Shown piece after piece: positions 6,690-51,090 of a DNA stretch of 64,000 nt. The stretch's first letter is position 1. Every line of letters begins with the position of its first letter. The stretch covers positions 1-64,000 of the forward strand of contig CAJQUW010005710.1 of NCBI GenBank assembly GCA_907163375.1, in the 5' to 3' direction. The stretch is from Prostheceraeus crozeri. Taxonomy: Eukaryota; Platyhelminthes; Polycladida; Euryleptidae. Position numbers and translations under genes: made by a program. The notes beneath the pieces are model-generated. The model worked only from the letters and a program-made list of their open reading frames with translations. It was not told the origin of the DNA and searched no databases.

Positions 6690-6945
6690 AGACGTGTTGC
6701 GAATTCACCAAAAATGATGTGTTTTGACAACGTGTCACACACGTGGCCATCACGTCACGAATTCACTAAAAAATTGCGTCGTTTGACAACGTGTCACACA
6801 CGTGGCCATCACGTCACGAATTCACCAAAAAATTGCGTGTTTTGACAACGTGTCACACATGGGGCCATCACGTCACGAATTCACCAAAAAATTGCGTGTT
6901 TTGACAACGTGTCACACACGTTGTCAACACGTGATGAATCCCCGG
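6690..6945 (+). repeat. 60-bp tandem repeat, four units
   Basis: TTGACAACGTGTCACACACG recurs at about 60-bp steps (near 6724, 6783, 6842 and 6901). Each copy is followed by GGCCATCACGTCACGAATTC and an A-rich CCAAAAAATTGCGTG segment. The array makes up most of the right arm of the ACGTG element. Confidence 0.85.
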
Positions 6946-14700: not shown

Positions 14701-15939
14701 TTTTACTTATTAAAGAAAGATGGCGGGGGCAGCCACAGGCAGAATATTTCATGACTCCTTATTTCTGATTCCCTAGCCTTCTGTTTGTCCATCTTGTTGT
14801 ATCAAATTTACAGCTACAAATGTGCTTAGCAGATTTTTGGAGTGGAACTAGCACAATTTTGATGTTTATACAGCGCCGCAAGCGAAACATCAAGCCTTTT
14901 GGGAAAGTAACTACTCGTAGTAGAATTTAAGCTGTTTAAAGCGCCTGGAATGTATACAGGATTTTCTTGGCAATTACATCAAGCAGGAATTACAGCTTTT
15001 CTAAGCTCTATCTTATTTCAAAATGTCATGATGGGGGAAGACTTTTTCTGAATCGAAATGTCTTGGCTCGTATAATGAGTAATGATATGTCCCGTAAACA
15101 GTAGAACAAATGGAATTGTTTACTTCACAATGTACGGTATAGGAGAGGGGAATTACTTAAGAGCCAAAAAACGTAACAAGGAAATGTAAATCACGTAGCG
15201 GGGTGTATACAACATAAATAATGCATCGTCTAGTCAAAAAAGTCCAACATCCTCAAAAATAGGATCATGTATCGTCAGAGGGGGCCCACTGATCGGTAGA
15301 AGGGGACCTATGGATATTATCAATTGTATTGACTTGTAATCAGAGGGGTCTTAGATGTCATTCCATCTTAGGGCCCTGTACCTCCTATTTTTATTGCATT
15401 TTCTGGCGAATCTCAGAAATGTTCCAGATAGCCGTCAAAAAATGCAGATTCTCTTCCCCGGTAATCTCAGGAAGGATCCATTAACTGTCAAATTTTTGAG
15501 TAGTGACTTCAGCAGAATATAGCCATCCAGGTTCCCCTTAATACTGGGAATGCAGAATCGAACTGCATCTACATGTCATACTAGAAATCACAACTCTAAG
15601 ATTCTGGTATCGTTATCAAGTCTGGATAAGCAACCAATGAAGATAAACATTATAGGAAGGAGAAAGGGCAATCAAAACTCTCAAATAAAACTCAACATAA
15701 TCTACTCCATACGAACGTAGTACAACGTTTTCGTCAAGCCTTCCCACCTAAAATTATTTCATATTTCGGAATCTTGATCACTTGAGTTGAGTCCTGTTTC
15801 TTCATGATTGACGAAGGAATCAGTGACTTGCAATTGTAGAAGGATCTTCTGATCAAGTGTCACGCGGATTTTTAGAAAGTACCTGCTTTGAATTCCATGA
15901 TTGTTTAAAAGTGAAGGGCCCCTTCACGAGCTGAATAGG
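11799..15939. other. Gene-poor AT-rich region
   Basis: Four kilobases in which no ORF exceeds about 95 codons and none resembles a family I know. Short palindromes such as AGTAACATAA/TTATGTTACT near 12000 look incidental. 15240-15540 has several runs of G or C related in style to the array that follows. Confidence 0.4.
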
Positions 15940-16400
15940 CTCCTTGATTATCTAAAAGGGTACCCACAGAATATCAAGAGGGCCCCCACGATGTCAAAAG
16001 GTCACCTTTACAATCTAAAAGAAACCCTCACGATCTCAAGAGGGCCCCTCACAATGTCAAAAGGGATCCTTCACGATCTCAAAAGGCCCCCTCACGATGT
16101 CAAAAGGTCACCTTTACAATCGCAAAAGGGCCCCCTCACAATCTTAATGGCCCTTCACAATCTCAAAAGGGCCCCATCACAATCTAAAAAGGGTCCCCTC
16201 ACGATGTCAAAAGGGCCCCCTCACAATCTTAATGGGCCTCTCACGATGTCAAAAAGGCGCTTCACAGTCTAAAAGGGTCTCATAACGATCTCAGGAGGCC
16301 CCTCACAATCTTGAAGGGCCCCTTCACGATCGCAGAGGGCCCCATCACGATGTCAAAAAGGCCCTTCACAATCTAAAAGGGCCTCATAACGATCTCAAGA
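15940..16400 (+). repeat. Degenerate ~27-31-bp tandem array, GGGCCCCCTCACAATCTCAA type
   Basis: Roughly sixteen imperfect units alternate CACAATCTCAAAAGGG and CACGATGTCAAAAGG themes joined by GGGCCCC stretches. The 123-codon ORF at 15901 is the repeat read in one frame (Gly-Pro-Leu-Thr-Met-Ser-Lys type) and shows no other sign of coding. Confidence 0.85.
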
Positions 16401-20248: not shown

Positions 20249-21060
20249 CTATTGCAACTTTGAGCGGAGAACACGTGAGTCAGAGGCAGAAAACGATGGT
20301 GAAGGGTGCCCGTCTTTATCTCCAGATCGGTTGTGCGGAAATAGACGAGTCAATGCACGTGGCAAACGTCCACTGTTGCCCGAAATCGATGGGTCGAGTG
20401 ATCTCGCACTTTCCATGGGTAGGCCCTCGGTTTTGTTGTTGGGAATATGATCACTGATTTCTTGGAGAGGATCGTGGTCTGAAGATGGAAGTGGATCAGG
20501 AATAATTTCTTCAGGAGAGGAGGGTTCCCTGCTTGATTTGATTTGCCCCCGTTGATTTGAGGATTGGGATCCGTCATCAGCACTGCAAGCCTTCTCCTTG
20601 GGCAGCCCGGTCGATGGAGAGATGATTGACTGCCGAGGGAATGGTAAGTCACGTTGAACCACTGGTGTAAACTTCCGAAGAAATTTACGGTTGCGGAGAG
20701 TCACACGGCCTGAGCCATCAACGCGCACCACATACTGGTCGAACTGACGCACTTCAATGACGATGCCTGTCATGTCCCATTTCGTAGGGTGGGGTCCTGT
20801 CTGGTTTTGAATGCGAACTTGATCGCCGATGAAGAGGGCTAGAAGGCGACGAGTGTGCTCCTGCAAACGTTCCGCTATCTTCATATGACGATGGCGCAGA
20901 GCATGTTCGCGTTGCGATAGGGTTTCTGTCCACGTGCGGTGGGGTTCGTATCTGCCAGGATGTATGGGGATGAAATCTCGTATGGCGCGACCGAAGATGC
21001 ATTGGGCAGGCGACATTTTGGTTTGATGATCTGGCGTGTTCCGGTACTGGAGCATAACTC
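20249..21060 (-). pseudogene. Second Ty3/gypsy integrase C-terminal remnant
   Basis: The frame enters recognisable integrase at LQYRNTPDHQTKMSPAQ, a standard motif late in gypsy integrases. It continues through the RDFIPIHPGRY region, a basic helix with QEHTRRLL, and a GDQVRIQNQTGPHPTKWD SH3-like barrel. A Ser/Pro-rich tail runs to the stop at 20249. The catalytic DDE core is absent: similarity ends abruptly near 21060, so the element is truncated there. It belongs to a different lineage from the neighbouring Gmr1-like pol. Confidence 0.75.
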
Positions 21061-21328
21061 GCTGGAACACTACAACACACTCTAGCACACACCTCTGCAC
21101 CTTACACAAACACACCCCAACAGCAGCCTCTCCGCCGAAGCTCAAGAGTGCGAACTGCTCCTCGGTGGTTGAGCGATTTCTCAACGGGGAGGAATCTGTG
21201 ACAGCTATCTGCTCAAATCTCCTATCGTTCTATCTGATCACGTTCTACTACATCTGCTGTCTAACGAGCGTGTGGAATCTCCGAGCCCGATGCGCCTTTG
21301 CCGCGATCAAAGCACACTCACCTCAAAG
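21061..21328. other. Short flank between gypsy tail and foldback element 2
   Basis: Unplaced sequence, slightly GC-richer than average. Its last nine bases, ACCTCAAAG at 21320-21328, form the left target duplication of the foldback element. Confidence 0.5.
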
Positions 21329-21360
21329 GGGTGTGGATAAAATCCGAACAACAATATAGA

Positions 21361-22066
21361 AACTGCGAAATTTTAAAACTAGTCTAATAGTTAAACAAAA
21401 AACAATCACGGTCAAATTCACATCAATTTAAAGCAGCTACTTCTTATGAAAAAAAAATATCACCAAATTTTATCAATTTGGTAAAATAATAATTAAGTTT
21501 CTTGTTTGACTACTTAAAAGTACATCAGTTATACAATTTTTCATGGAATATGAATTTAAACTCAGTATATTCCTAGAAATGTTCAATATAGAATTTTTCT
21601 GTGATAAAGCAATGGTCTCAGTTCTTGATCTCAACTACAATGGCCCATTTGACGAACGATAGTCTTTACATTACTTAAAAGAAATAAAATATCTACTATC
21701 CCGGCCATTGACACTGCTCCACGCTATATAATAGGCAATCGCAACAAGAATAGTATTACGCGTTAAAAATATAAATAGGGCATCTTATACAAAATATGAC
21801 TCCGAAAGTATCATTTACTGAATTCCTGCAATATCCAAGTAACATCTGCAAAGAAAATGGACTAAGAGCCGTAATAATAGCTGCAATAATAAAGAGTTAC
21901 ATGATTGTTTTATATCAGAGCGTTATTGTGATTACGTGCTTGTACTCAGCATGTCAAATGTTTCCGATGTCAGTGCACAACTCTTGCTTTATCAAAATAT
22001 TGAGGAACCCGTTCAATGATCCCTCAATAACGCCGGAATGAAGTGATTTCCAGCTGAAATATAGAC
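21361..22066. other. Left subterminal region of foldback element 2
   Basis: AT-rich unique sequence between terminal repeat and array. It does not mirror the right subterminal region, which is shorter and packed with GTTCGG words. No gene seen. Confidence 0.5.
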
Positions 22067-23964
22067 TCAAGTCCATTTATTTGGCTCCGAACAACTCGAA
22101 GATGCAGTCATTCCCCTCCGAACAACTCCTTCAGCCCTGAAAAATGACCCGAACAACACTCTAGTCCACTCAATTGCCTCCGAACAACTCGAAGATGCAA
22201 TCATTCCCCTCCGAACAACTCCTTCATCCCTGAAAAATGACCCGAACAACACTCCAGTCCACTTGTTTGGCTCCGAACAACTCCTTCAACCCTGAAAAAT
22301 GACCCGAACAACACTCTAGTACACTCAATTGGCTCCGAACAACTCCTTCAACCCTGAAAAATGATCCGAACAACACTCTAGTCCACTCAATTGCCTCCGA
22401 ACAACTAGAAGATGCAATCATTCCCCTCCGAACAACTCCTTCTACCCTGAAACGTGACCCGAACAACACTCCAGTCCACTCAATTGCCTCCGAACAACTC
22501 CCTCAACACTGAGAAATGATCCGAACAATACTCTATTCCACTCAATTGCCTCCGGACAATTCGAAGATGCAATCATTCCCCTCCGAACAACTCCTTCATC
22601 CCTGAAAAATGACCCGAACAACACTCCAGTCCACTTGTTTGGCTCCGAACAACTCGAAGATGCAATCATTCCCCTCCGAACAACTCCTTCAACCCTGAAA
22701 AATGACCCGAAGAACACTCTAGTCCACTTGTTTGACTCCGAACAACTCGGAAATACAATCTTTCTCCTCCGAACAACTCCTTCAACCCTGAAAAATGACC
22801 CGAACAATACTCTAGTCCACTCAATTGCCTCCGAACAACTGGAAGATGAAATCATTTCCCTCCGAACAACTCCTTCAACAATGAAAAATGACCCGAACAA
22901 CACTCTAGTCCACTCAATTGCCTCCGAATAACTCGAAGATGAAATCATTCCCCTCCGAACAACTCCTTCAACCCTGAAAAATGACCCGAACAACACTCTA
23001 GTCCACTCAATTGCCTCCGAACAACTCGAAGATGCAATCTTGCTGCTCCGAACAACTCCTTCAACCCTGAAAAATGACCCGAACAATACTCTAGTCCACT
23101 CAATTGCCTCCGGACAACTCGAAGATGCAATCATTCCCCTCCGAACAACTCCTTCAACCCTGAAAAATGACCCGAAGAACACTCTAGTCCACTCAATTGC
23201 CTCCGAACAACTCGGAAATACAATCTTACTCCTCCGAACTCCTTCAACACTGAAAAATGATCCGAACAACACTCCAGTCCACTTTTTTGGCTCCGAACAA
23301 CTCGAAGGTGCAATCATTCCTCTCCGAACAACTCCTTCAACCCTGAAAAATGACCCGAACAACACTCTAGTACACTCAATTGCCTCCGAACAACTCGAAG
23401 ATGCAATCATTCCCCTCCGAACAACTCCTTCAACCCTGAAAAATGACCCGAACAACACTCTAGTCAACTCAATTGCCTCCGAACAACTGGAAGATGCAAT
23501 CATTCCCCTCCGAACAACTCCTTCAACCCTGAAAAATGATCCGAACAACACATTAGTCCACTCAATTGCGTCCGAATAACTCGAAGAAGCAATCTTACTG
23601 CTCCGAACAACTCCTTCAACCCTGAAAAGTGACCCGAACAACACTCCAGTCCACTTGTTTGACTCCGAACAACTCGGAAATACAATCTTTCTCCTCCGAA
23701 CAACTCCTTCGGCCATGAAAAATGATCCGAACAACACTCTGGTCCTATTATTTGACTCCGAACAACTGGAAGATGCAATCATTTCCCTCCGAACAACTCC
23801 TTCAACACTGAAAAATGACCCGAACAACACTCTAGTCCACTCAATTGCCTCCGAACAACTCGAAGATGCAATCATTTCCCTCCGAACAACTCCTTCAACA
23901 CTAAAAAATGACCCGAACAATACTCTAGTCCACTCAATTGCCTCCGGACAACTCGAAGATGCAA
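22067..23964 (+). repeat. Left array of 31-bp modules (93-bp unit)
   Basis: Three module types of 31 bp each open with a CCGAACAAC box. They continue TCGAAGATGCAATCATTCCC (A), TCCTTCAACCCTGAAAAATG (B) and ACTCTAGTCCACTCAATTGC (C). A-B-C gives a 93-bp unit, with some units lacking A. Because 93 is divisible by three, several frames stay open on both strands, including a 492-codon frame on the - strand. Similar openness in multiple frames argues against real coding. Confidence 0.92.
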
Positions 23965-25246
23965 GCTCAAATGCAGCTTATGAATTGCTCCAAGCAATTC
24001 CTGCCGAAGTAATGAATCATAGCTTCAGCACGAAAGCTCTCCATCATATTTCAGAGGTATTTGTCGAAACTGTGAATTAGCAATTTAATCAAAGGCCTGC
24101 TTTATGCTACTTGTCGTTGCTGTTTGCTGTGAAGTCGTTATCGTTGAAATGAGAACAAGTTTTATATTTCGAAATTCATGTCGAGAAATTGATTCCCTTT
24201 CTGCATCGACTCAATTCATGGTAGAGTTGGAGACGCCTCGGTCATTCGCAATGTCCACATAAATAAAGAACACCAAGAAATGAACGCATTTGAGATTGTT
24301 TAGTATTTTGTAGGCCTAAACAATTCTTTTGTCCCGGGTAGTCACTGGTTTCTGCCACTGAGGTCGATAAGACCATCAGCATGCGTATCAAGCATCTCAT
24401 AAAGATTCTTGCCTTGAAATGCATCCAGAGAATGTTTGCCCTATCTGCGAAGATGGAAATTACCGATATTTACCAATTTATTGACTGCTTTTTCTGTTTA
24501 CTGAAATGATCATTCAAATCATCTTTCGTTGCAATCTCACACTGCCTTACGATGTCACTAACCTCTGAGACATCGTTTGAGAGACTTACCTCTGAGACAC
24601 ATAAACTCATCATCGCTTCAAAACTCTGATGAAGCATTTACTTATGGAGGTTTTGTGGCAACATTCATATACCGTGATCGTCGACATTAGGCCTATTGCA
24701 TAATTCAGTAGCTTCTTTATCCATAGTTAGCAACAGCTTGGGTATTGTCTTCAGATAGCTACACAGGTTGATATAATCAAGCTAAGCCTTTATAGATATT
24801 TTAAACCAGTTTGGGCCATCTCGAGCCTCTGGCGTGCCCTTGTAGAGAGAGACCCATCGTCTACAGCCAAAGAAGTTTTGGATTGAAATTGCTCGAGTCG
24901 GAGGACATCTTTGTATTCTATGCCCAGGCGAACTGGCACCCTGCGATGTTTATGATTAAGCTATAAGAGAAAATGCTTGAGATTTGATCTCTCTTTGACT
25001 TGCTTCTGTACATGAACTAACAAGTCTAATATTGAGGAAATTACTGCGGCAATTGACTTCGGTTGATTTTGTGACGAGAAAGCCATAGACTATAAATAGC
25101 AACAGGCATTACAGACTCATAGAATACACTAAGAATGCAATATTCCAATGAAATTGTTCGTTTTCAGTATTCAACAAACATTACTTTTAAAGAAAATTGA
25201 TAGTATTCACCACCATTTACTTCATTTATATTGTTGCTGTATTTAA
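23965..25246. other. Loop of foldback element 2, left part
   Basis: Unique sequence. The frame leaving the array runs to a stop at 24080 with no recognisable product. No gene or RNA supported. Confidence 0.4.
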
Positions 25247-25644
25247 CATTTGTATATCATATTACGCCAGTGTAACTAAAACGTTACGGTTCAAAAAAAT
25301 TACGTGCCATGTCATGAATGAATATCCGAGCAAGTATTGATTGCTATTTTCGGTATTTGATGGATAATGAGATCACACAAATGACATTGACAGTAAATTA
25401 CATGTGGACGTTCATACACTGGGCCTTTCAGTATACTAGCAGATTTTAAGCCCATTTTTGTCTAATTTCGTGATAAAATATAAGCACTAAAAAGTGATAA
25501 ATTTTGAATTGGCGATTGTTTACCTGAAAATATGTGATCAATAATGTGTGGTAATCAAAATATTGTATCATATGTCGCAAGCTGGAGAAGAAAGCAGATT
25601 CCGAAAAGTGATGTAACGAAAACGTTACACTGGCGCTAAATGGG
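25247..25644. mobile_element. Possible piggyBac-like MITE (398 bp)
   Basis: TTAA at 25243-25246 and 25645-25648 flank the segment. Near the ends lie ACGCCAGTGTAACTAAAACG and, complemented from the right, GCGCCAGTGTAACGTTTTCG. The right end has GGG next to TTAA as piggyBac ends do; the left end appears mutated (CAT instead of CCC). Noncoding. Confidence 0.45.
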
Positions 25645-25648
25645 TTAA

Positions 25649-27120
25649 GCCAGCAATCAATAGCAAACATGAATTATCTTTGTACAATCTAACTTCACAG
25701 TTAACAGCCAATCATGCATGCAACACATTTCTTGCTATCATTTACTCTTATATAAACCTTCACAAGGGCTGCATCTGTGCCATTCAAACATCGACCGTTG
25801 AAGGCGCTGGACGCCGAAGGCCTGTCTGCCACACTTTTAACTTTAACTTGATTATAATGGCCTAAACTGAAAAGGGGAGTTTTAATTACTTTGTATAATA
25901 ACTTTTTCAGATGTTAGCTTCTATTACACTAATCTGACTATCGATTTAGAAACATTTGATGGACCTAAAGTTAAAAAATGAACTCAATGAATTCTCCATG
26001 GCCACACTTGTTCTCCGTGTTGTTTACAACAACTTAGTTACAGACCCAAATTTCTTAAAGATGATGACATCGACTTACGGCTTCGATGTAAATATGTTTC
26101 AGAACGACGTATGTGATAGATTCTGAGTGATCATCATTTGTATTTAGGCAGTGAATTTTGTTTGACGTTGTGACTTTTCGATGGGTGATGGTATCCCTTA
26201 GTTTCCGCAATTGTGCGGGTTCCTTTCGCTGTCTAACGTTGAGATATACCTCAGCAGCACGTCAAGGTTCTCCATCTAATGTCTCAAGTTTCTAAGTCGA
26301 GAAATTAAGTTTGAACTTAGAAACTTGTCAAAAACAAAATATGTACTTGTTATTTCCAGGCAAATCGTCATTCATCGTACGAAGTTTGATCTCAAAGCAG
26401 CTTTGGTTATGCGCGGTTCTGACAACAACGGCCACTGTGAGTTATTTACGTGCAAGTGCAGTGACATCAGTGAGAGTAGGATAATTAGCTACACGTAGTG
26501 GGTTGGTTGCAGCTACCAGATACCCAGGTCATACAGCAATCCAAGTGTGTGTTTCGAGGCACACATCATTTCTCTTACACGAGTGCTTCCATACTACACA
26601 CACTGTAGGCTATCTGCATTTTTCGATTGTAGCCTAACCTATGTCAAAATGGAGTATGTGGTGATGTAGGGAGTTTCTCTTTACCTCGATAACCAATTTT
26701 CCCTTTTTCTTATTCTGTTTACTTTCTTTCTGAGATCCCACTTATTACCTAACTCATTTCAATAGTAGTAATGTTCATGTGAATTTCGTTGGGGTATTCA
26801 CTCAAGACTTTGTTCGAAGCAGTGTCATGTGTATGGGACACGTGTGCTCGCTCTACGTACGGTAGACCTCAGCTCAAACCTTGATCGGATCAAACCTGAC
26901 AATTAAAACGTACACATTCTTCATTCCTGCTTAACACTGTGAGGGTGGGGATTGATTTAAAAAAACAAACTCGGTCACAAGGAAAAAAGGCGTTTCGCCC
27001 GATGTACCTCCTATAATAGAAAATTGTCATCCCATTTATTTTGAAGGTTGATGAAACAAAATAGACACTTATGGAGTTGGATTTTTCATCTATATCAGCC
27101 TTCTTTTCCGTTGCGTTAAA
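25649..27120. other. Loop of foldback element 2, middle part
   Basis: Unique sequence without a recognisable gene. Confidence 0.4.
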
Positions 27121-27146
27121 AATTAACTCCTACATTCTTTTCAGAT

Positions 27147-27246
27147 TTGACATATGTCTTCTGCGGAGAAGCGTTGTACCGACTGAATGACACCCGAATC
27201 GGCGCAGTAGATATTAATGACAGTGTGGTGTCCGATGACCTAGGGG
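27147..27246 (+). other. Exon-like segment with good splice signals
   Basis: A pyrimidine-rich stretch ending TTCTTTTCAG (about 27136-27145) precedes an open segment that ends at GGG with donor GTAAGTAT (27247). Read in the frame starting LTYVFCGEALYRLNDTRIG it is open for about 33 codons. I do not recognise the product. It lies in the loop of the foldback element and could be a captured host exon. Confidence 0.3.
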
Positions 27247-27399
27247 TAAGTATCAGTGGCAGTGATGGGGTTTTCCAATATGAAATGTTATGTACACCTT
27301 TTCCAGTACAACTCGATATTGGTGACGTACGCAAAGGCATATCATCGAATACCAAGGGAAGGAAGCGACTGAAGTTTCAACGCCTAGTCACGTGGAAAT

Positions 27400-28110
27400 C
27401 TTACGATGTTGATCTCGATCTCGACACGGAATCGAGCCGCTACATAACTTTTTTTAGTAATCAGCTCAGTTTTTTAATTGTTACCAGCTACGCATAGCGA
27501 GTACATATGCTTTGACTGCTTCAGATCTCAACGACGAATAGGGCAGCTTCTTATCTGTATGTAGTAGCCGGATCAGTATTTTCAGACATCACTAACTACA
27601 CTGACGTTTTGAATGTTTCAAATCTCGACACCGAATGAGACTGCTTCATCTCTGTATATATGTTTTTCAGATTTTTTAGATTGTTGTATTACTCAAACTT
27701 CATTATGCACGCATGACTGCAGATGCCTTGACTGCAACAAATCTCCACGCCGAATAGAACTGTTACATATCTGTATATAGTACTCAGATCACTTTCTTAG
27801 ATTGTTTTTTATCATTCACAGATGACAAGTGCACATGCTTTGACTGTTTCAGATCTCGACGCCGAATAGAACAGCTGTACATATCTGTATATAGTAGCTA
27901 GACACAGACTTTACTAAGTCCGCATGAAGACTATAGATATTTTGACTGACACTGATCACGACACCGAATGTAGCCACTTCATATCTGTAAATAGTTATTT
28001 CATGTTGTTATAATTCACGCCAAATAATTTTTTCACGATTGTTATTATACATAGAGATTAGCATCCAAGCATGAAAACAATTGATGTTTTGACTGTTACA
28101 TACGTCCTGT
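27400..28110 (+). repeat. Degenerate ~100-115-bp tandem repeat
   Basis: A theme of TTTGACTG...ATCTCGACACCGAAT...CATATCTGTATATAGTA recurs near 27405, 27510, 27607, 27725, 27838, 27936 and in truncated form near 28085. Copies are clearly related but heavily diverged, so it is older than the flanking 31-bp arrays. Confidence 0.7.
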
Positions 28111-28837
28111 TAATATAAGCACAGTTTTCGTTGTCCCGGATTGTTTCCACTGATATGAAGGAAATCAAAATACACGGTACAAATCACCATATCGTTTTCA
28201 GTTTTCAGCGCCTTTAAAAACAACTTTTATACGAAAAGTATGACATTAGGAATGACGTCATAGTCAAAATCTAAGATGTGTAAGCAATTGTGAGCCTTTT
28301 CTAACCTATTGCACAGACCTGTGTGCCAAATCTGAGGGCATGATCGACTTTCAAGTGTAAATAGTAGAACTCTGTTAAATAATTGCTGGTTTGAGTTTCA
28401 CTCAGACTTCGGTAACGGAATAGACAACCCCCAAATGTCACAGTCGTGGGCCACAGATTAAGGCGGAGCAGTGGGCGACTTGATGACGTGCGTTGAACCT
28501 GAAGTAAATTCCTATTCGCCAGATAGCGCGTTGCATAGCTATTTGCGATTACGTGAGTGTTGCATAAGAATACATGTATTCAATATTTCAATTTCATCAC
28601 ATGCTACGAGGATAAAGGTTTTTCGCTTTCATGATAGTCATTCACTAAAACGATGAAAACACATCGCCTCACCCGATGTGACTATTTCTTGGTTGTGTGT
28701 GTTGACTTACTATCAGTGGTGCCATACTGTCTCCCCAAAGCACTGGGAGAGGAGAAGTGATCTCCCGATGGAAATATACACTGACAATTAGTCCACATAC
28801 CTACTTCCTTAAAATACGTTGATACACTACACTTCTA
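28111..28837. other. Loop of foldback element 2, right part
   Basis: Unique sequence up to the right array. No gene supported. Confidence 0.4.
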
Positions 28838-31800
28838 GAGTTGTTCGGAGGCAACTGAGTAAACTAGATTATTGCTCGGATCATTTTTTAGGGATGAAGG
28901 AGTTGTTCGGAGGGGAATGATTGCATCTTCGAGTTGTTCGGAGCCAAACAAGTGGACTAGAGTGTTGTTCGGGTCACGTTTCAGGGTTGAAGGAGCTGTT
29001 CGGAGGGGAATGATTGCATCTTCGAGTTGTTCGGAGGCAATTGAGTGGACTAGAGTGTTGTTCGGGTCATTTTTCAGTGTTGAAGGAGTTGTTCGGAGGG
29101 GAATGATTGCATCTTCGAGTTGTTCGGAGGCAATTGAGTGGACTGGAGTGTTGTTCGGGTCACTTTTCAGGGTTGAAGGAGTTGTTCGGAGGGGAATGAT
29201 TGCATCTTCGAGTTGTTCGGAGGCAATTGAGTGGACTGGAGTGTTGTTCGGGTCATTTTTCAGTGTTGAAGGAGTTGTTCGGAGGGGAATGATTGCACCT
29301 TCGAGTTGTTCGGACGCAATTGAGTGGACTAGAGTGTTGTTCGGGTCATTTTTCAGTGTTGAAGGAGTTGTTCGGAGGGGAATGATTGCATCTTCGAGTT
29401 GTTCGGAGGCAATTGAGTGGACTAGAGTGTTGTTCGGGTCATTTTTCAGTGTTGAAGGAGTTGTTCGGAGGGGAATGATTGCATCTTCGAGTTGTTCGGA
29501 GGCAATTGAGTGGACTAGAGTGTTGTTCGGGTCATTTTTCAGTGTTGAAGGAGTTGTTCGGAGGAGTAAGATTGTATTTCCGAGTTGTTCGGAGTCAAAC
29601 AAGTGGACTAGAGTGTTCTTCAGGTCATTTTTCAGTGTTGAAGGAGTTGTTCGGAGGGGAATGATTGCATCTTCGAGTATTTCGGAGGCAATTGAGTGTA
29701 CTAGAGTGTTGTTCGGGTCATTTTTCAGTGTTGAAGGAGTTCTTAGGAGGGAAATGATTGCATCTTCGAGTTGTTCGGAGGCAATTGAGTGGACTAGAGT
29801 GTTGTTCGGATCATTTTTCAGTGTTGAAGGAGTTGTTCGGAGCAGTAAGATTGCATCTTCGAGTTGTTGCGAGGCAATTGAGTGGACTAGAGTGTTGTTC
29901 GGATCATTTTTCAGGGTTGAAGGAGTTGTTCGGAGGCAATTGAGTGTACTAGAGTGTTGTTCGGGTCATTTTTCAGGGTTGAAGGAGTTGTTCGGAGCCA
30001 AACAAGTGGACTGGAGTGTTGTTCGGGTCATTTTTTAGTGTTGAAGGAGTTGTTCGGAGGGGAATGATTGCATCTTCGAGTATTTCGGAGGCAATTGAGT
30101 GGACTAGAGTGTTGTTCGGGTCACGTTTCAGGGTAGAGGGAGTTGTTCGGAGGGGAATGATTGCATCTTCGAGTATTTCGGAGGCAATTGAGTGTACTAG
30201 ATTGTTGTTCGGGTCACTTTTCAGTGTTGAAGGAGTTGTTCGGAGCAGCAAGATTGCATCTTCGAGTTGTTCGGAGGCAATTGAGTGTACTAGAGTGTTG
30301 TTCGGGTCATTTTTCAGGGTTGAAGGAGTTGTTCGGAGCCAAACAAGTGGACTGGAGTGTTGTTCGGGTCATTTTTCAGGGTTGAAGGAGTTGTTCGGAG
30401 GTTAATGATTGCATCTTCGAGTTGTTCGGAGGCAATTGAGTGGACTAGAGTGTTGTTCGAATCATTTTTCAGTGTTGAAGGAGTTGTTCGGAGCAGTAAG
30501 ATTGCATCTTCGAGTTGTTGCGAGGCAATTGAGTGGACTAGAGTGTTGTTCGGATCATTTTTCAGGGTTGAAGGAGTTGTTCGGAGGCAATTGAGTGTAC
30601 TAGAGTGTTGTTCGGGTCATTTTTTAGGGTTGAAGGAGTTGTTCGGAGCCAAACAAGTGGACTGGAGTGTTGTTCGGGTCATTTTTTAGTGTTGAAGGAG
30701 TTGTTCGGAGCAGTAAGATTGCATCTTCGAGTTGTTCGGAGGCAATTGAGTGGACTGGAGTGTTGTTCGGGTCACTTTTCAGGGTTGAAGGAGTTGTTCG
30801 GAGGGGAATGATTGCATCTTCGAGTTGTTCGGAGGCAATTGAGTGGACTGGAGTGTTGTTCGGATCATTTTTCAGTGTTGAAGGAGTTGTTCGGAGCAGT
30901 AAGATTGCATCTTCGAGTTGTTGCGAGGCAATTGAGTGGACTAGAGTGTTGTTCGGATCATTTTTCAGGGTTGAAGGAGTTGTTCGGAGGCAATTGAGTG
31001 TACTAGAGTGTTGTTCGGGTCATTTTTCAGGGTTGAAGGAGTTGTTCGGAGCCAAACAAGTGGACTGGAGTGTTGTTCGGGTCATTTTTTAGTGTTGAAG
31101 GAGTTGTTCGGAGGGGAATGATTGCATCTTCGAGTATTTCGGAGGCAATTGAGTGGACTAGAGTGTTGTTCGGGTCACGTTTCAGGGTAGAGGGAGTTGT
31201 TCGGAGGGGAATGATTGCATCTTCGAGTATTTCGGAGGCAATTGAGTGTACTAGAGTGTTGTTCGGGTCACTTTTCAGGGTTGAAGGAGTTGTTCGGAGC
31301 AGCAAGATTGCATCTTCGAGTTGTTCGGAGGCAATTGAGTGTACTAGAGTGTTGTTCGGGTCATTTTTCAGGGTTGAAGGAGTTGTTCGGAGCCAAACAA
31401 GTGGACTGGAGTGTTGTTCGGGTCATTTTTCAGGGTTGAAGGAGTTGTTCGGAGGTTAATGATTGCATCTTCGAGTTGTTCGGAGGCAATTGAGTGGACT
31501 AGAGTGTTGTTCGAATCATTTTTCAGTGTTGAAGGAGTTGTTCGGAGCAGTAAGATTGCATCTTCGAGTTGTTCGGAGGCAATTGAGTGGACTAGAGTGT
31601 TGTTCGGATCATTTTTCAGGGTTGAAGGAGTTGTTCGGAGGCAATTGAGTGTACTAGAGTGTTGTTCGGGTCATTTTTTAGGGTTGAAGGAGTTGTTCGG
31701 AGCCAAACAAGTGGACTGGAGTGTTGTTCGGGTCATTTTTTAGTGTTGAAGGAGTTGTTCGGAACAGTAAGATTGCATCTTCGAGTTGTTCGGAGGCAAT

Positions 31801-32750
31801 TGAGTGGACTGGAGTGTTGTTCGGGTCACGTTTCAGGGTTGAAGGAGTTGTTCGGAGGGGAATGATTGCATCTTCGAGTTGTTCGGAGGCAATTGAGTGG
31901 ACTGGAGTGTTGTTCGGATCATTTTTCAGTGTTGAAGGAGTTGTTCGGAGCAGTAAGATTGCTTCTTCGAGTTGTTCGGAGGCAATTGAGTGGACTAGAG
32001 TGTTGTTCGGATCATTTTTCAGGGTTGAAGGAGTTGTTCGGAGGCAATTGAGTGTACTAGAGTGTTGTTCGGGTCATTTTTCAGGGTTGAAGGAGTTGTT
32101 CGGAGCCAAACAAGTGGACTGGAGTGTTGTTCGGGTCATTTTTTAGTGTTGAAGGAGTTGTTCGGAGGGGAATGATTGCATCTTCGAGTATTTCGGAGGC
32201 AATTGAGTGGACTAGAGTGTTGTTCGGGTCACGTTTCAGGGTAGAGGGAGTTGTTCGGAGGGGATGATTGCATCTTCGAGTATTTCGGAGGCAATTGAGT
32301 GTACTAGATTGTTGTTCGGGTCACTTTTCAGGGTTGAAGGAGTTGTTCGGAGCAGCAAGATTGCATCTTCGAGTTGTTCGGAGACGATTGAGTGGACTAG
32401 AGTGTTGTTCGGATCATTTTTCAGTGTTGAAGGAGTTGTTCGGAGCAGTAAGATTGCTTCTTCGAGTTGTTCGGAGGCAATTGAGTGGACTAGAGTGTTG
32501 TTCGGATCATTTTTCAGGGTTGAAGGAGTTGTTCGGAGCCAATTGAGTGGACTAGAGTGTTGTTCGGGTCATTTTTCAGGGTTGAAGGAGTTGTTCGGAG
32601 CCAAACAAGTGGACTGGAGTGTTGTTCGGGTCATTTTTCAGGGTTGAAGGAGTTGTTCGAAGGGGAATGATTGCATCTTCGAGTTGTTCGGAGCCAAATA
32701 AGTGGACTAGAGTGTTGTTGGGGTCATTTTTCACGGATGAATTAGTTTTT
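28838..32750 (-). repeat. Right array of 31-bp modules, with 1,054-bp higher-order repeats
   Basis: Same modules as the left array on the opposite strand. From about 29758 the order of variants repeats every 1,054 bp (29758, 30812, 31866), which is 34 x 31 bp, for about 2.7 copies. A rare variant, GAGTTGTTGCGAGG in place of GAGTTGTTCGGAGG, marks the phase in the first copies. Third-copy lengths differ by one base because of a deletion near 32262. Open frames of up to 388 codons follow from the period and appear on both strands. Confidence 0.92.
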
Positions 32751-33115
32751 CGGAGCCAATTTTGATTATACTTTAGGTCATGTTAGTTGTTCGGAGGGGA
32801 AACATAGCAGGAAAGCAGTGCCGATGTGTCGTTATTGCGTAGAATAGCAAACCTCTTGCGTTTGAAACCGCATACTCTTTGTTCGGTAGTATTATAGATG
32901 TTCGGATTTTAACCTTTGGTTGTTCGGGCTCGTTCGGAGGTGTTCGGATTTGTTTGGAATATGATTTTATGACTTTCTTGCTGATTTAAGTTCACGAGCA
33001 GGTAAAACTGACTACTTTCTACTCATATATGAAATGTTCGGCTCAATATTTTTCCATTTTCAATGAGATTTTAATTGTTCGGAATAGATTTGTTGTTCGG
33101 ATTTTATCTACACCC
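32751..33115 (-). repeat. Right subterminal region with scattered GTTCGG boxes
   Basis: About ten copies of TTCGG or TTGTTCGG lie in 365 bp at irregular spacing, for example near 32790, 32880, 32900, 32923, 32936, 33045, 33078 and 33096. They end in the terminal repeat, which itself contains TTGTTCGG. Clustering of one short box towards a transposon end suggests protein-binding sites. Confidence 0.7.
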
Positions 33116-33124
33116 ATCTCAAAG

Positions 33125-33820
33125 CGTGGATATGCAGAATCGAAAGTGAAATTCAAAGTGCGCGCGTTGTGGACATTGCTATTGTTCTGTTAGTTAAAAC
33201 GCATTAATGCTAAATTTTGTTAACTTGGCTCATCCAGAACTATATAAGCTGTCGTTTGACAAATAAACAGCACGGACGTGTGAGAGTATTAAAACTTGTT
33301 TTCAATACTCAGTTGTGAGCTAAAGCAATTTGACTAGCTGAATTTCTCACATATAGTTACATCTTATACTTTAGTCCACTTCTACAAGCTATGTAGTAAA
33401 ATTGCTAAATCACGGACTTGAAAACAAATGGGACGGAAATTATTAGGACGATCGTTCATTTGGGCAATTACTAAACTATATACGATGACATAAAAAAATT
33501 ACTAAACCGTATGCACGGTATACGGTGCCATAGTGCCACGGCATCGTACGTAGATTAGTAATTGCCTTCATTCGTCCACACGAAAATTATGCTCGCCTTG
33601 ATAAGAGCCTCAAGTCACTGCTTTCGAGGCTCCCGCATTAGATGGAGAAGTGACCTTGGTTTTTATGACGCTCATGACATCCCAAAATTGTTTCATTGCA
33701 AACACTAATTTTTTCATTTCCCTGCCTGTTGTAGAAACATTTCTCTTATCTGATTAACTTCATGTTTTATACAGAATTTTGTAAATTCTTCAAACTTGTT
33801 GTTCTTATGAAAAAACAGAA
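33125..33820. other. Flank between foldback element 2 and the gypsy element
   Basis: A TATATAAG at 33241 followed by AATAAA at 33262 and downstream GT-rich sequence resembles the promoter and poly(A) layout of an LTR, but no second copy is visible. No coding sequence recognised. Confidence 0.35.
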
Positions 33821-34388: not shown

Positions 34389-36845
34389 TCACAGATTCAG
34401 TCTGTTCGGCTTCTTCCGTGGACGTCCGTAACGTGACGTTGAGCACCAATCCTCGCTCTTGTCCTGCGGCGTTGCATTGTCATTCATCGGAGGAATCGGA
34501 GACGAAGACGACACTGGAGATGCAAGAGTAGCAGAAACCACTGGTGATGCCGAAGACACAGCAGGAACAGGAAAGCCACGAGACGCAGTAGGAACAGCAG
34601 ATATGGGAGACGGAACAGGAACCGGAGGTGCAGGAGTAGCAGGAGCTGAAGAAGCGTCGGACCAAGGAGATGTAGCAGGTACTTGAGCGGCAGAATCCGA
34701 ATTACTGCCCAGGGTGTCCAGGTCACGAGTTGCCTCGGAGACGAAGCGAAGTTGCTCCACATGTCGATTGTGGATAGATCCGTCCTCGACATCCAGGATT
34801 GAGGCCATCTTCTTCCCCTTTCTCTTCAGAACTATTCCTCGACGGAATCGCATGTCGTTTCCACGCTGGAACATAACTTTTTGCTGTCCGATAACTCTGT
34901 TCTTCAAAACATGCCCTCGAAAAAGTACAGATGGTCGTTGATGAGTAGTGGCATGATCGGCATTTCTGTATTGGAATAGAAAGCTCAAAATGAACCTTTC
35001 CAAGTCGAAAAAGTCATGAAAGTTCTTGGATTCAGAAGACACAGCTTGTTTCAAAGTCTTGATGACATTTTCGGCTAAACCGTTGGATTTCGGATGGCGT
35101 GGGGCACTATACAACTGAATTACGTTCATGGACGCTAGCCATTTGTTGAGCTTTGCTTCGGTGAAATGTGTACCGTTGTCGCTTACTAGTGTCTGAGGAA
35201 TTCCTTCACGGGAGAAATAGGAGCGGAGGCATCGTTCAGTGAAGGCCGCATCCACTGTCTTCGTCAGAAATACTTCTGGCCATTTCGAATATGAGTCAAC
35301 GAAGACGAGACAGTAGTAATTCCTCAAAAATGGTCCAGCGTAATCGATATGCAACCTCTGGTTTACCTCATAGGTGGCAGGCCAGGCACTCCAACTGCAA
35401 GGTGTATTTCTCACCTTTGTGACGCAGTTGTCGCATCGACGAGCAAAATTCATTAAATCGGCATTGATAGTAGGCCACCAACATAGAAGTCTCGCAAGGC
35501 TTCGCATCTTTTCCACGCCGACGTGTCCAATATGTAGATGCTGCATGATCTGTTTTCTCAAACAAGGAGGAATGACTGTCAGCTCTCGGAATGCCAAATT
35601 GCCCTCGATTGTTATGCTCAATTCTTCACGAATATCGTAGAATTCCCTGAATTGACGTTTGACTTTAGATGACCAGCCAGCTCTAACGGCGCGAAGAACC
35701 GGTCCATAGTAACGTTTCGTTTCCTGCGTAATTTCAGTGCAGTCGATCGGCAAGGGCTGAATGAAGAGTGTGTTGGTGGAGCTGTCATCTTCGGATCGGG
35801 CATAACGCGAGAGGTAGTTAGCTTGGGGAATGTTGGCACCTTTCCAAAATTCCACGTCGTAATTGTACGAAGACAGTCGCCAAGACCAGCGTTGCAACAT
35901 ATTCGAGGTCCCCTTCGAGATTGATCCTTGAGGATTGAAAATATGCGTGAGGGAACGGTGATCTGTCACAATGGTGAAACGGAGTCCAAATAGGAACTTG
36001 TGCAAACGCTTGACGCACCAATGAATGGCCAAAGCCTCCTTTTGTGTCTGCGAGTATCCAACTTCGCTAGGACTCAACTTCCTCGAAATACAAATCACCG
36101 GAGAGCCATCTTGTTCCAACATGCCGCCTATCGCCCTTTCTGATACATCGCATACCAGACGCGTTTTAGTTGCATTCATGGAGAATGGCTTGAGATTCTT
36201 GTTAAAAATCTCGTTCTTTAATCGTTTCAGAGCTTTACGGTGCTTCTCTTGCCATTCAAATTCGCACCCCTTCTTGCATAAATCAAATAGGCATGCTGCA
36301 ACGTAAGCGAAATTAGGGCTGAATCGGCTGTAGAACTGTAAACACCCAAGTACGGAATGAAGTTCTTGTTGATTGCTGGGCTCATTGGCTGTCATGATGG
36401 GAACGAACTTTTCAGGGTCCGGCTGAATTCCTTCAGAGGAGACTAGGTACCCGAGGTAGCGTATACTGGAGACGCCGAAAATACTCTTGGACTTGTTTAT
36501 TCGCACGTTGAAATCTATCAGGCGTTGGAGTAATTGCACAAGGACATCGTCATGCTCTTTCTTAGTCTTGGCGTAAATCAAGAGGTCATCTTGGTAAGAA
36601 ATGACATTGGGAAGGCCGCTGATTATCTCATCAATGACAGACTGAAATATTGATGAAGACACGTGCCATCCGAAAGGGAGGAAACGCATGGAGTACAGTC
36701 CGAAAGGAGTTATTAACGGCGTTAATTCTTGAGACGCTTCGTCGAGAGGAATTAGCAGGAACGCATTCTCGAGGTCCACTTTGCTGAAAACTGAAGCTCC
36801 GTTCAAGTTTGAGAATAAGTCCTCTGATTCCAGCGTTGTAGGGGG
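34389..36845 (-). CDS. Gypsy pol: RT (most), RNase H, integrase
   Basis: Reverse-transcribes element RNA and integrates the cDNA. The open frame extends to 36908, but true pol sequence begins at the frame junction near 36840; numbering here is from 36908. RT domain A has VDLENAF and the active site is YQDD (residues 105-108). RNase H acidic residues are near D254, E291 and D316. The integrase has an H2C2 finger (HLHIGH...CDNC, 457-495) and a D522-D577-E613 triad spaced D-x54-D-x35-E. The tail is Ala/Pro/Ser-rich and ends with a basic GRPRKKP motif. All catalytic residues are present. The N-terminal part of RT lies in the preceding ORF in another frame. Confidence 0.93.
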   Translation of the reverse strand, partial: PPTTLESEDLFSNLNGASVFSKVDLENAFLLIPLDEASQELTPLITPFGLYSMRFLPFGWHVSSSIFQSVIDEIISGLPNVISYQDDLLIYAKTKKEHDDVLVQLLQRLIDFNVRINKSKSIFGVSSIRYLGYLVSSEGIQPDPEKFVPIMTANEPSNQQELHSVLGCLQFYSRFSPNFAYVAACLFDLCKKGCEFEWQEKHRKALKRLKNEIFNKNLKPFSMNATKTRLVCDVSERAIGGMLEQDGSPVICISRKLSPSEVGYSQTQKEALAIHWCVKRLHKFLFGLRFTIVTDHRSLTHIFNPQGSISKGTSNMLQRWSWRLSSYNYDVEFWKGANIPQANYLSRYARSEDDSSTNTLFIQPLPIDCTEITQETKRYYGPVLRAVRAGWSSKVKRQFREFYDIREELSITIEGNLAFRELTVIPPCLRKQIMQHLHIGHVGVEKMRSLARLLCWWPTINADLMNFARRCDNCVTKVRNTPCSWSAWPATYEVNQRLHIDYAGPFLRNYYCLVFVDSYSKWPEVFLTKTVDAAFTERCLRSYFSREGIPQTLVSDNGTHFTEAKLNKWLASMNVIQLYSAPRHPKSNGLAENVIKTLKQAVSSESKNFHDFFDLERFILSFLFQYRNADHATTHQRPSVLFRGHVLKNRVIGQQKVMFQRGNDMRFRRGIVLKRKGKKMASILDVEDGSIHNRHVEQLRFVSEATRDLDTLGSNSDSAAQVPATSPWSDASSAPATPAPPVPVPSPISAVPTASRGFPVPAVSSASPVVSATLASPVSSSSPIPPMNDNATPQDKSEDWCSTSRYGRPRKKPNRLNL

Positions 36846-38055
36846 CATGGTGCCGCAGAATTGGATTGATGGTGATCCGATAATCACTGCAAACGCGTGG
36901 TTGGCCATTGGACTTCAACGGTGTAACGATCGGAGTGGCCCAACGAGAACTTGTGACTTTGACAGCGATGCCATCATCAATCCATTTGTCAAAAATCTTC
37001 TTGACTGGCTCCCTAAGACCGAAAGCAATAGGCCTACTCTTGAAAAATCTGGGTTCGCTACTGTCGTGGTCAACGTGGATGGGAGGAATCTTGATGCCGC
37101 CTGAACATGCTGATGCGGATTCGATCAATGTACTTATCCCGACGTTCGTTTCACTCTCTTGCGTACTGGTACTGGGATCAGCAGTTATCATCATCATTGC
37201 ATTTTCGAATGCTTGTTGCACTTCGGGATGTAACCGGAAGACGTCTTTTTTCCCTAAAATGTTGAAGCGGTCGCAAACCAAGAAGAGAACATCGTAACCA
37301 TTAACTTTGAGATTGATTTCGCCGTGAACTTCAAGTTGATGCCCTGTAACACCACGAACGGGAGAACTTCTGGAAACTGGGAGGAACTCAGCATCGAAGG
37401 GTTGGATGGAGTCAGACCTGATGAACGAATGAACTGCGCAACCGGTATCATAAATAAATTCAATCTGTCTTCTGTTGTGGGAGGAATCAGATACATCACA
37501 TATTCGCTTTACATGTTCATCATCGTCTACTGCCAGGCAATATTCCTCGTCTGAAAGGGACTTGGCTTCTTCGACTAAGTGAACAACATCTTCTTTAGAT
37601 AGTCTGCTCATACAGGCTTTGCTAATATGTCCTTGTTTGTGACATGAATTACATGTGGCATTGCGAAATTTACAGTTTTGCCTCAGATGGTCCTTTCCTC
37701 CACAAGAATAACAGTGGCCCTTTGGATTACCGTTATTGGAAGCTTGGAACGGCCTAGATTGACGTTGCCTTGAATGAAAATTGTTGGACTGTGACTTATG
37801 CAAGTTACTGGTAGGCGCGGACTTCGGTCTATACTGCGTGGTCTTCTTATGAAACGTTGCCAGAACTGGTTTCTCAACGTGGTGCGATCTTACGGCTGAG
37901 TCGATGGAAACGTGAGCGTTGGCGATTGCTTTAGCAGATTCGAATGTCAAGCTGGCTTCAGTCAAAAATTTGCGTCGAATGTGATCGTCGTTGATGCCTG
38001 CGACTAACCTATCCCTCAGGTGAGTTTGCAACTGTGATCCGAAATTACAGTTCAT
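36845..38055 (-). CDS. Gypsy gag nucleocapsid, protease and RT start
   Basis: Two CCHC knuckles, CYSCGGKDHLRQNC (residues 115-128) and CNSCHKQGHISKAC (135-148), bind RNA. An aspartic protease with YDTG (202-205) processes the polyprotein, and the RT N-terminus follows with RVCSDYR. The frame then changes at a run of five C (- strand, about 36841-36845) and RT continues one base out of phase in the downstream ORF. One extra base is the simplest cause; a programmed +1 shift is unlikely inside RT. Downstream of the shift this frame (to 36631) is nonsense. Confidence 0.88.
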
Positions 38056-38142
38056 GGACTGTTTTTGTAGTTGAAGAATGAAATCGGCTATAGACTGGTT
38101 TAACCTGCGAACTCGAGTGTTGAAAACTGCCTTTCGTGAATT

Positions 38143-48179: not shown

Positions 48180-48465
48180 AGCGCGCCGGGAAGTATGCTA
48201 TTTATAGAAATTCCAGGATCCCGGCTCGCCGGAAGTGCGCTATTTATAGAAATTCCAGGATCCCGGAGCGCCGGGAAGTATGCTATTTATAGAAATTCCA
48301 GGATCCCGGCGCGCCGGGAAGTGCGCTATTTATAGAAATTCTAAGATCCCGGCGCGCGGGAAGTATGCAATTTATAGAAATTCTAAGATCCTGGCGCGCC
48401 AGCGCGCCGGGATATGTTCTATTTTTAGAAAATATCGCTTATCGAGCGCGCCGGCGCGCCGGATT
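48180..48465 (+). repeat. 42-43-bp tandem repeat with GGCGCGCC palindromes
   Basis: TATTTATAGAAATTC recurs at 48199, 48241, 48284 and 48327, with a variant at 48369, so the period is 42-43 bp. Each unit alternates an AT-rich half with a GC-rich palindromic half (GGATCCCGG then CGCGCCGGG). The GC islands stand out sharply from the AT-rich surroundings. Confidence 0.88.
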
Positions 48466-49664: not shown

Positions 49665-51090
49665 ACTTGATCAGTTTTGTCCTGTTATTCGACTTTGTCT
49701 AATTATGTCCTGTTTTGTCCTGTTATTCGACTTTGTCTAATTGTGTCCTGTTTTGTCCTGTTATTCGACTTTGTCTAATTATGTCCTGTTTAGTCGTATT
49801 CTTCGACTTTGTCTAATTATGTCTGTTTTGTCCTGTTATTCGACTTTGTCTAATTGTGTCCTGTTTTGTCCTGTTATTCGACTTTGTCTAATTATATCCT
49901 GTTTTGTCCTGTTATTCGACTTTGTCTAATTATGTCTGTTTTGTCCTGTTATTCGACTTTGTCTAATTGTGTCCTGTTTTGTCCTGTTATTCGACTTTGT
50001 CTAATTATATCCTGTTTTGTCCTGTTATTCGACTTTGTCTAATTATGTCCATTTATTCGACTTTGTCTAATTATGTCCTGTTTTGTCCTGTTATTTGACT
50101 TTGTCTAATTATGTCTGTTTTGTCCTGTTATTCGACTTTGTCTAATTATGTCCTGTTTCGTTGTATTCTTCGACTTTGTCTAATTATGTCTGTTTCGTTG
50201 TATTCTTCGACTTTGTCTAATTATGTCCTGTTTCGTTGTATTCTTCGACTTTGTATAATTGTGTCTTGTTTCGTTGTATTCTTCGACTTTGTCTAATTAT
50301 ATCCTGTTTTGTCCTGTTATTCGACTTTGTCTAATTATGTCTGTTTTGTCCTGTTATTTGACTTTGTCTAATTATGTCCTGTTTAGTCGTATTCTTCGAC
50401 TTTGTCTAATTATGTCCTGTTTTGTCCTGTTATTCGACTTTGTCCAATTATGTCCATTTATTCGACTTTGTCTAATTGTGTCCTGTTTTGTCCTGTTATT
50501 CGACTTTGTCTAATTATGTCCTGTTTAGTCGTATTCTTCGACTTTGTCTAATTGTGTCCTGTTTTGTCCTGTTATTCGACTTTGTCTAATTATGTCCTGT
50601 TTTGTCTTAATATTCGACTTTGTCTAATTATGTCTGTTTTGTCCTGTTATTTGACTTTGTCTAATTAAGTCCTGTTTAGTCGTATTCTTCGACTTTCTCT
50701 AATTATGTCTGTTTTGTCCTGTTATTCGACTTTGTCTAATTATGTCTGTTTAGTCCTGTTATTCGACTTTGTCTAATTATGTCCTGTTTAGTCCTGTTAT
50801 TCGACTTTCTCTAATTATGTCTGTTTAGTCCTGTTATTCGACTTTGTCTAATTATGTCCTGTTTTGTCGTATTCTTCGACTTTGTCTAATTATGTCCTGT
50901 TTTGTCCTGTTATTCGACTTTGTCTAATTATGTCCATTTATTCGACTTTGTCTAATTATGTCCTGTTTTGTCCTGTTATTCTACTTTGTATAATTGTGTC
51001 CTGTTTTGTCTTAATATTCGACTTTGTCTAATTATGTCCTGTTTAGTCCCATTCTTTAACTTTGTCTAATTATGTTCTGTTTAGTCCTAT
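49665..51090 (+). repeat. 38-bp minisatellite, about 35 units
   Basis: The unit is ATTCGACTTTGTCTAATTAT plus GTCCTGTTTTGTCCTGTT. Variants drop one GTCCTGTT subunit or replace it with TAGTCGTATTC or TTCGTTGTATTC. The last unit near 51090 decays. ORFs across it are read-through. Confidence 0.93.

Follow-up and report, generated by a model that had tools for sequence, protein, structure and literature searches.

What kind of element sets two giant, mutually inverted arrays of tandem repeats around a loop of several kilobases, and what moves it? The question is raised by positions 21329-33115 of a 64,000-nucleotide stretch of contig CAJQUW010005710.1 (hereafter the window) from the polyclad flatworm Prostheceraeus crozeri, whose assembly comprises 2.05 Gb in 14165 contigs; coordinates below are positions in the window unless a contig is named. 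This segment is, with high confidence, a non-autonomous foldback DNA transposon of the FB type that exists in some dozens of large copies and is presumably moved in trans by a transposase that generates 9-bp duplications, most likely a Mutator-like one (MULE/Phantom-type; MULE, Mutator-like element). The element has inserted repeatedly as a unit with exact ends and a 9-bp target duplication, and sister copies, empty target sites, miniatures with the same ends and array lengths that vary from copy to copy lend further support.

Ends and architecture

The termini are 26-bp inverted repeats (21329-21354 on the forward strand, 33090-33115 on the reverse) identical at 25 of 26 positions, with the sequence GGGTGT(G/A)GATAAAATCCGAACAACAA; as shorthand, the ends of this family are called GGGTGTRGATAAAATCC ends or GGGTGTRGATAAAATCCGAACAACA ends. 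The terminal 25-mer has no third match in the window, even with up to 7 mismatches allowed. Immediately outside the termini, ACCTCAAAG on the left and ATCTCAAAG on the right agree at 8 of 9 positions (the chance of at least 8 of 9 at a fixed register is ~1e-4). Because contig C596, which carries the right flank of the window, reads ACCTCAAAG at its right side, the single mismatch is probably a later change in a duplication that was originally perfect. Both the 26-bp terminal repeats with 25 matching bases and the near-perfect 9-bp duplication had been described in a first reading of these letters by themselves (the original prediction), and both descriptions hold, the duplication being exact at 9 bp in other copies.

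The original prediction also spoke of giant inverted tandem-repeat arms with a 4.9-kb loop. The two tandem arrays (22065-23964 and 28838-~32759) are indeed mutually inverted, with ~90% complementarity across as much as 814 nt, and they enclose a loop of 4.87 kb (23965-28837). However, the arms are unequal in length (1.9 kb for the left array, 3.9 kb for the right) and do not form one continuous inverted repeat, with subterminal stretches of ~710 bp on the left and ~330 bp on the right lying between the 26-bp ends and the arrays. These two subterminal regions look unrelated, a judgement made by way of one miniature element and not by direct mutual alignment, since the right region is homologous to an arm of that miniature and the left matches it within the terminus only.

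Copies, target duplications and empty sites

Genome-wide, the terminal 25-mer occurs at 242 places with at most 2 mismatches and its reversed control at none. When the left end was used as query, the best 40 of 44 candidates were scored, and 27 of these matches began at query base 9-10 (21328/21329), on the first base of the element or the one preceding it; the right end as query produced 42 rows from the best 40 of 168 candidates. By this count of ends, the family has some dozens of large copies. Fourteen of these were read in addition to that in the window, among them C596, which is truncated at its contig end (copies are named by their contigs). The 13 with both ends range from 3.66 kb (C313) up to 18.95 kb (C5043), the copies in C10560, C13661a and C450 being partly enlarged by nested elements, of which that in C10560 contains a 1015-aa gypsy-like frame. 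Other nested or nearby open reading frames (ORFs) are presumably hAT-like (C13661a), mariner-like (C5043), CACTA-like (C450) and, at a single end, Tc1/mariner-like (C6459, L081), judging by general appearance. Wider end pairs, of 21-46 kb, occur on C13906, C7232, C6932, C10140 and C584, outside the set of copies read, and L086 (C11391:275193) resembles, by eye, a diverged relative of the left end over ~110 bp, followed by other repeats.

Target duplications were scored in the 14 two-ended large copies, window included and C596 left out, as its contig starts inside the element. The 9-bp flanks are exact in 10 of these and differ by at most one mismatch in 11, and none of the 14 has an exact flank match at 6, 7, 8, 10, 11 or 12 bp. 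A point to be set against insertion with a regular duplication is that a good one is missing in the remaining three copies (7/9 in C4029, none in C10560 or C5713).

When the flanks of the window element were joined with one copy of the duplication, 31 of 35 rows were continuous across the join, the best with 98% identity over all 200 bases; the other four comprise two pieces of the window, C596 and one partial match. For the copy C13661b, the best 40 of 56 candidate rows were all continuous (40/40). These related empty sites show that the element inserted as a unit. Several of the empty sites of the window target are paired at distances of 4.4-4.8 kb, or 2.7 kb in one case, which suggests that the target itself was a long terminal repeat (LTR). 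The original prediction of a complete foldback transposon with identifiable ends, which had proposed looking for further termini and for the joined flanks without the element, is thus borne out on both counts, by inverted pairs with 9-bp duplications among the 242 places and by the uninterrupted sites, as well as by the sister copies.

Two large copies in like orientation lie in two copies of one target repeat, ~4.3 kb apart (G000:C13661:112365-142549; L034, L035, L021). Their insertion register differs by one base, the duplications being AGCAACAGC and GCAACAGCG, and the loops of the two resemble each other no more closely than each resembles the loop in the window. This pair may represent a target hot spot or an LTR pair hit twice.

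Arrays of a 31-bp unit

The units of both arrays contain a 9-bp core, GTTGTTCGG, that also forms the inner portion of the terminus. Across 14 copies (C596 among them, C5713 not), adjacent cores are exactly 31 bp apart in 1459 intervals, and the next commonest spacing, 62 bp, occurs 72 times. The three unit types A, B and C, which make up a 93-bp triplet, agree at 9/9 core positions and at 3/22 others (Fisher p ~1e-5), and in 1382 units picked only by the cores of their neighbours the core positions hold 1.36-1.91 bits and the others 0.17-1.72. Core counts, with at most one mismatch allowed, vary from 10 to 78 on the left-arm strand and from 29 (C450) to 351 (C5043) on the right-arm strand; the longest single array, in C5043, reaches ~11 kb. 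A protein search with the array reading frame gave nothing at E <= 0.001 among 7995 scored candidates.

There is modest support for the idea, put forward for Tetris too, that the arrays arose when part of the terminal arm was amplified in tandem: unit C agrees with the right subterminal region at 22/31 bases, and 200 shuffles of its 22 non-core bases gave no score above 21. As 31 bp corresponds to about three helical turns, the cores would lie on one face of the DNA, and because the 31-bp units repeat the 9-bp core of the end, the arrays may serve as extra binding sites; binding of the transposase by the unit cores would parallel what has been proposed for Galileo.

Several observations weigh against such an origin and role. 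Collection of the units relied on their core, and the unit types come from the consensus of a repeat finder, which favours the core; one non-core position is equally conserved. Units A and B score 19 and 17 against the right subterminal region, where the shuffle maximum is 21, and the score of 22 for unit C against the miniature element equals the shuffle maximum. With C596 and C5713 left out, 11 of 13 left arrays are closer to their own right partner than to the average of the remaining right arrays, but 6 of 13 only when the best of those is the yardstick, so that arm-to-arm correction within an element is not established.

It is quite possible that the arrays instead built up passively, through slippage or unequal exchange in an arm prone to repeats, with no role in transposition and with a core that is common to the units by descent from one arm stretch. 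The wide differences in core counts among copies would be expected from such a process, and miniature elements without long arrays have also moved. What this account fits less well is that the part kept in common by unit types otherwise so dissimilar is the 9-bp core, and that this core belongs to the terminus.

Miniature relatives and the mobilizing enzyme

Family ends also bound 32 short elements of 386-639 bp, mostly ~500-530 bp, apart from a single longer one (821 bp) with non-matching flanks. They emerged from 37 terminal loci fetched from 100 listed among the 242; these had been picked either as already seen paired (14) or as single and not known to be ends of large copies (23), so that the proportion of two-ended loci, 32/37, does not describe a random sample. 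The 9-bp flanks of the 32 are exact in 17 and differ by at most one mismatch in 23, with exact matches at 8 bp in none and at 10 bp in one. Short, with inverted ends and with target duplications, these elements conform to miniature inverted-repeat transposable elements (MITEs). L056, the one miniature compared, has two arms that share 90% identity over 185 bp. In the large element, the right subterminal region matches such an arm at 73% over 344 bp and 78% over 210 bp, and the match of the left subterminal region is confined to the terminus.

The original prediction held that the missing transposase implies a partner elsewhere in the genome. No transposase was recognized among the loop ORFs tested, either by comparison with Pfam (one ORF of the window and five of C11223) or by eye (the remaining ORFs), and to that extent the claim stands; the partner itself is something that we infer. 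The genome-wide search for a transposase covered the PF10551 (MULE) family only, and its domains are common, the best 150 of 559 candidates having been scored. Of the 150, 5 lie on a contig that also has one of 128 listed ends, at a distance of 64 kb or more. Four MULE loci (L036-L039) have no terminus at <=8/25 mismatches within 1.5 kb, L038 having one stretch at 9 mismatches, and three single ends tracked 7-8 kb inward lead to no second terminus at <=8 mismatches and to no MULE-like frame discernible by eye. Twenty-one MULE hits in the genome have an identical score and a 482-aa open frame; they probably reflect a recent MULE burst.

The best guess for the mobilizing enzyme is a Mutator-type transposase that would recognize the 26-bp end in trans and move the element by cut-and-paste. 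This assignment is drawn from the 9-bp duplication, which lies within the 8-10 bp of MULEs, and from three precedents. Tm1 is assigned to MULE by its transposase (PMC3169594), Tetris by 8-10-bp duplications and long ends (PMC4079207), and FB4 by 9-10-bp duplications and long ends (PMC8277862). Telling against it, none of the copies was found to encode a transposase, so that the superfamily is read from duplication length and precedent, and the Drosophila FB elements are termed P-element-related in one report (PMC7642927). An autonomous copy may nevertheless be present but unseen, because the ends were listed and read in part.

An enzyme from another superfamily, for example a P-type one as for Galileo, or hAT or Merlin, is improbable. 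The foldback form does arise in several superfamilies, and no transposase has been tied to the ends in a genome searched for PF10551 alone. However, the duplications measure 9 bp, neither the 7 bp quoted for Galileo nor 8 bp, MULE domains are abundant in this genome, and Tm1, Tetris and FB4 are placed in MULE.

Contents of the loop

Under the preferred reading of a non-autonomous element moved in trans, the loop would be cargo that includes a deubiquitinase-like gene fragment picked up from elsewhere and, among sister copies, a dead piece of a retroelement. The right 3.2 kb of the loop (25645-28808) is present in 11 other copies (C596, C5713 and C313 left out), with an aligned mismatch to the window of 1.1-3.0%; the family is therefore young. 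The loop contains two putative exons, A and B. Exon A is complete and has AG/GT sites in 9 of 15 copies, counting the window, as does exon B in 11 of them (in one a base short); both are absent in C313 and C5713 (N there), and exon A also in C619. Many of the copies read have kept the reading frame open as well as the splice sites. With the ORF that covers exon B as query, close copies emerged at 29 places, window and C596 included, and 11 weak places elsewhere (44-55%). The 29 are read as family members, some of which may be two haplotypes of one locus.

An exon pair of the same lengths, 77 and 101 nt, with the intron in the same position, occurs at L087 (C13691), and 27 of 59 residues are identical between the two, without gaps. 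Their 84 base differences are distributed 27/17/40 over codon positions 1/2/3, a pattern that points to divergence under protein constraint, and hence the captured piece probably originated in a gene paralogous to, and diverged from, that at L087, which may be host or mobile. The joined exons match the C-terminal part of Pfam UCH (PF00443) with E = 0.00029 for L087 and E = 0.0061 for the loop, in a stretch that we take to be the region with the catalytic histidine box; matches to yeast Ubp8 chains are weak (E 0.012-0.014), and CheX gives E 0.38. The loop looks to carry a copied scrap of a deubiquitinase-like gene. A caution against this identification is that the UCH scores, 21.0 and 16.6 bits, are both under the curated cut-off of 23.9, with 59-60 residues present. 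It is a bolder and rather unlikely proposition that the family disperses a spliceable exon pair, that some copies are transcribed and spliced into neighbouring genes to give chimeric proteins, and that the arrays act as helically phased transposase-binding ladders favouring large cargo.

Upstream of the exon pair, five sisters (C171, C11223, C4029, C13840 and C10560) have a GIY-YIG-like ORF, preceded in C171, C13840 and C11223 by an ORF bearing YIDD, which we take to be the mark of a reverse transcriptase. One stop lies between two in-frame halves in C171, C11223 and C4029, and the copy in the window retains just the last codons. In C11223, the sole copy run against Pfam, the GIY-YIG match has E 0.009 and 16.7 bits, under the cut-off of 22.6, and the reverse-transcriptase-like ORF matches no Pfam family; a homologue search with the GIY-YIG-like ORF of this copy returned 1 protein. 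The sister-copy ORF looks like a dead Penelope-like passenger, at a Pfam score below the cut-off. The segment lies between inverted repeats of ~140-160 bp with 89-95% identity (loop positions 1712-1851 and 2912-3051 in C11223; likewise in C4029 and C171). A separate 0.95-kb insert with an ORF that is presumably reverse-transcriptase-like, by its look, is found directly behind the left terminus of L018 (C171; element positions 110-1058).

That this reverse-transcriptase/GIY-YIG-like ORF drives the element, and makes the loop autonomous, is very unlikely: its recurrence in sister copies would fit such a role, but it is split by a stop in three of them and reduced to a tail in the window, and inverted ends with a 9-bp duplication are the signature of a transposase. 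An assembly artefact, in which one satellite array was collapsed or inverted, can be practically dismissed, because although tandem arrays are error-prone and C596 and C5713 show irregularities, a comparable array-loop-array design is present in most of 13 copies on other contigs, with their own target duplications and with empty sites; the misassembled single array that the original prediction had named as a possible refutation is therefore no explanation. Both contigs are probably unpolished: small indels relative to the other copies and irregular distances between units mark C596, and the part of C5713 that was read includes 7500 N.

Relation to known foldback elements

Foldback elements are known from rather few animals, often with a handful of complete copies. 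The present genome has a young family with many giant copies, miniatures that share its ends, clean empty sites and arrays of tens to hundreds of units, in which two old questions are now testable, namely whether arm repeats bind transposase and how arrays grow. Long inverted arms of tandem repeats around a middle domain, together with a target duplication of ~9 bp, place it among FB-type foldback elements. The design, duplication length, unit length and gene capture are all already known from foldback elements; noteworthy here are the apparently unrelated subterminal regions behind near-identical termini, the ~11-kb array and the deubiquitinase-like exon pair as cargo. A literature search with the sequence strings of the terminus and the unit gave no related match.

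Drosophila FB elements share with this family inverted arms of tandem 27-31-bp units, variable and unequal block numbers and a 9-bp duplication (PMC7642927). Their ends are 467-479-bp inverted sequences (PMC7642927), compared with 26 bp inverted outside the arrays here; the two are likened by structure, and one array of the present family reaches ~11 kb (C5043). FB4 is known to have captured a host gene, as Ssk-FB4 (PMC8277862), beside which the present family adds a foldback element with captured gene exons. Tetris and its miniature DAIBAM of Drosophila virilis are similar in their tandem-repeat foldback arms, 8-10-bp duplications and ends common to the miniature, and in that the units of Tetris are thought to derive from a flanking part of the arm and no autonomous copy was found (PMC4079207). 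They differ in that Tetris has ~220-bp units and three structurally complete copies, compared with 31-bp units and at least 10 copies with perfect duplications here.

Tm1 of root-knot nematodes has foldback-like composite ends, mostly 9-bp duplications and miniature forms, but some of its copies contain a putative Phantom/Mutator transposase (PMC3169594), and none was found here. Pack-TIR and Pack-MULE elements likewise hold a non-TE (transposable element) gene piece between transposon ends (PMC8277862); here an exon-intron-exon piece sits in a giant foldback loop, and the locus compared, L087, is a 46%-identical paralogue and not the parent. Galileo has long, internally repetitive ends whose tandem units were proposed as secondary transposase sites, but belongs to the P superfamily and makes 7-bp duplications (PMC3573991). 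Sea-urchin TU, listed as a foldback in PMC4079207, has this form in a marine invertebrate and is likened to the present family by form alone.

Feature coordinates and surroundings

The features of the element are collected in Table 1. An Rfam scan of 21300-33200 at E <= 1 gave 0 matches, as did a pattern scan of viral contigs.

Table 1 Features of the foldback element and its flanks, in window coordinates
Feature	Position	Strand	Remark
Left target-site duplication ACCTCAAAG	21320..21328	.	flank comparison
Left terminal inverted repeat, 26 bp	21329..21354	+	27/40 genome matches start at 21328/21329
Left subterminal region	21355..22064	+	kept in family copies; no relation to right one detected
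Left array, 31-bp units as 93-bp triplets A/B/C	22065..23964	-	core CCGAACAAC on + strand
Loop (middle domain), 4.87 kb	23965..28837	+	no transposase recognized in tested ORFs
Remnant, C-terminal end of the reverse-transcriptase/GIY-YIG-like ORF of several sister copies	25645..25690	+	
Putative exon A of captured deubiquitinase-like gene piece, 77 nt	26360..26436	+	AG before, GTGAGT after
Putative exon B of captured deubiquitinase-like gene piece, 101 nt	27145..27245	+	AG before, GTAAGT after
Degenerate tandem repeats in loop, units roughly 110-120 bp	27418..28002	+	
Right array, 31-bp units	28838..32759	+	core GTTGTTCGG
Right subterminal region	32760..33089	+	homologous to one miniature-element arm
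Right terminal inverted repeat, 26 bp	33090..33115	-	
Right target-site duplication ATCTCAAAG	33116..33124	.	flank comparison

The foldback element is adjoined on its left by a piece of an integrase (20249-21229, reverse strand). To its right, 34389-38142 (reverse strand) is the coding region of a Gypsy-type retrotransposon, with reverse transcriptase, RNase H and integrase in 34389-36914 and an overlapping upstream frame. Two ORFs of tandem C2H2 zinc fingers, with 12 and 9 zf-C2H2 stretches, lie on the forward strand at 55925-57058 and 62656-63654. Other tandem arrays in the window are found at 129-401, 6700-6939, 15914-16398, 48181-48400 and 49674-51088, and include ~38 copies of a 38-bp unit.

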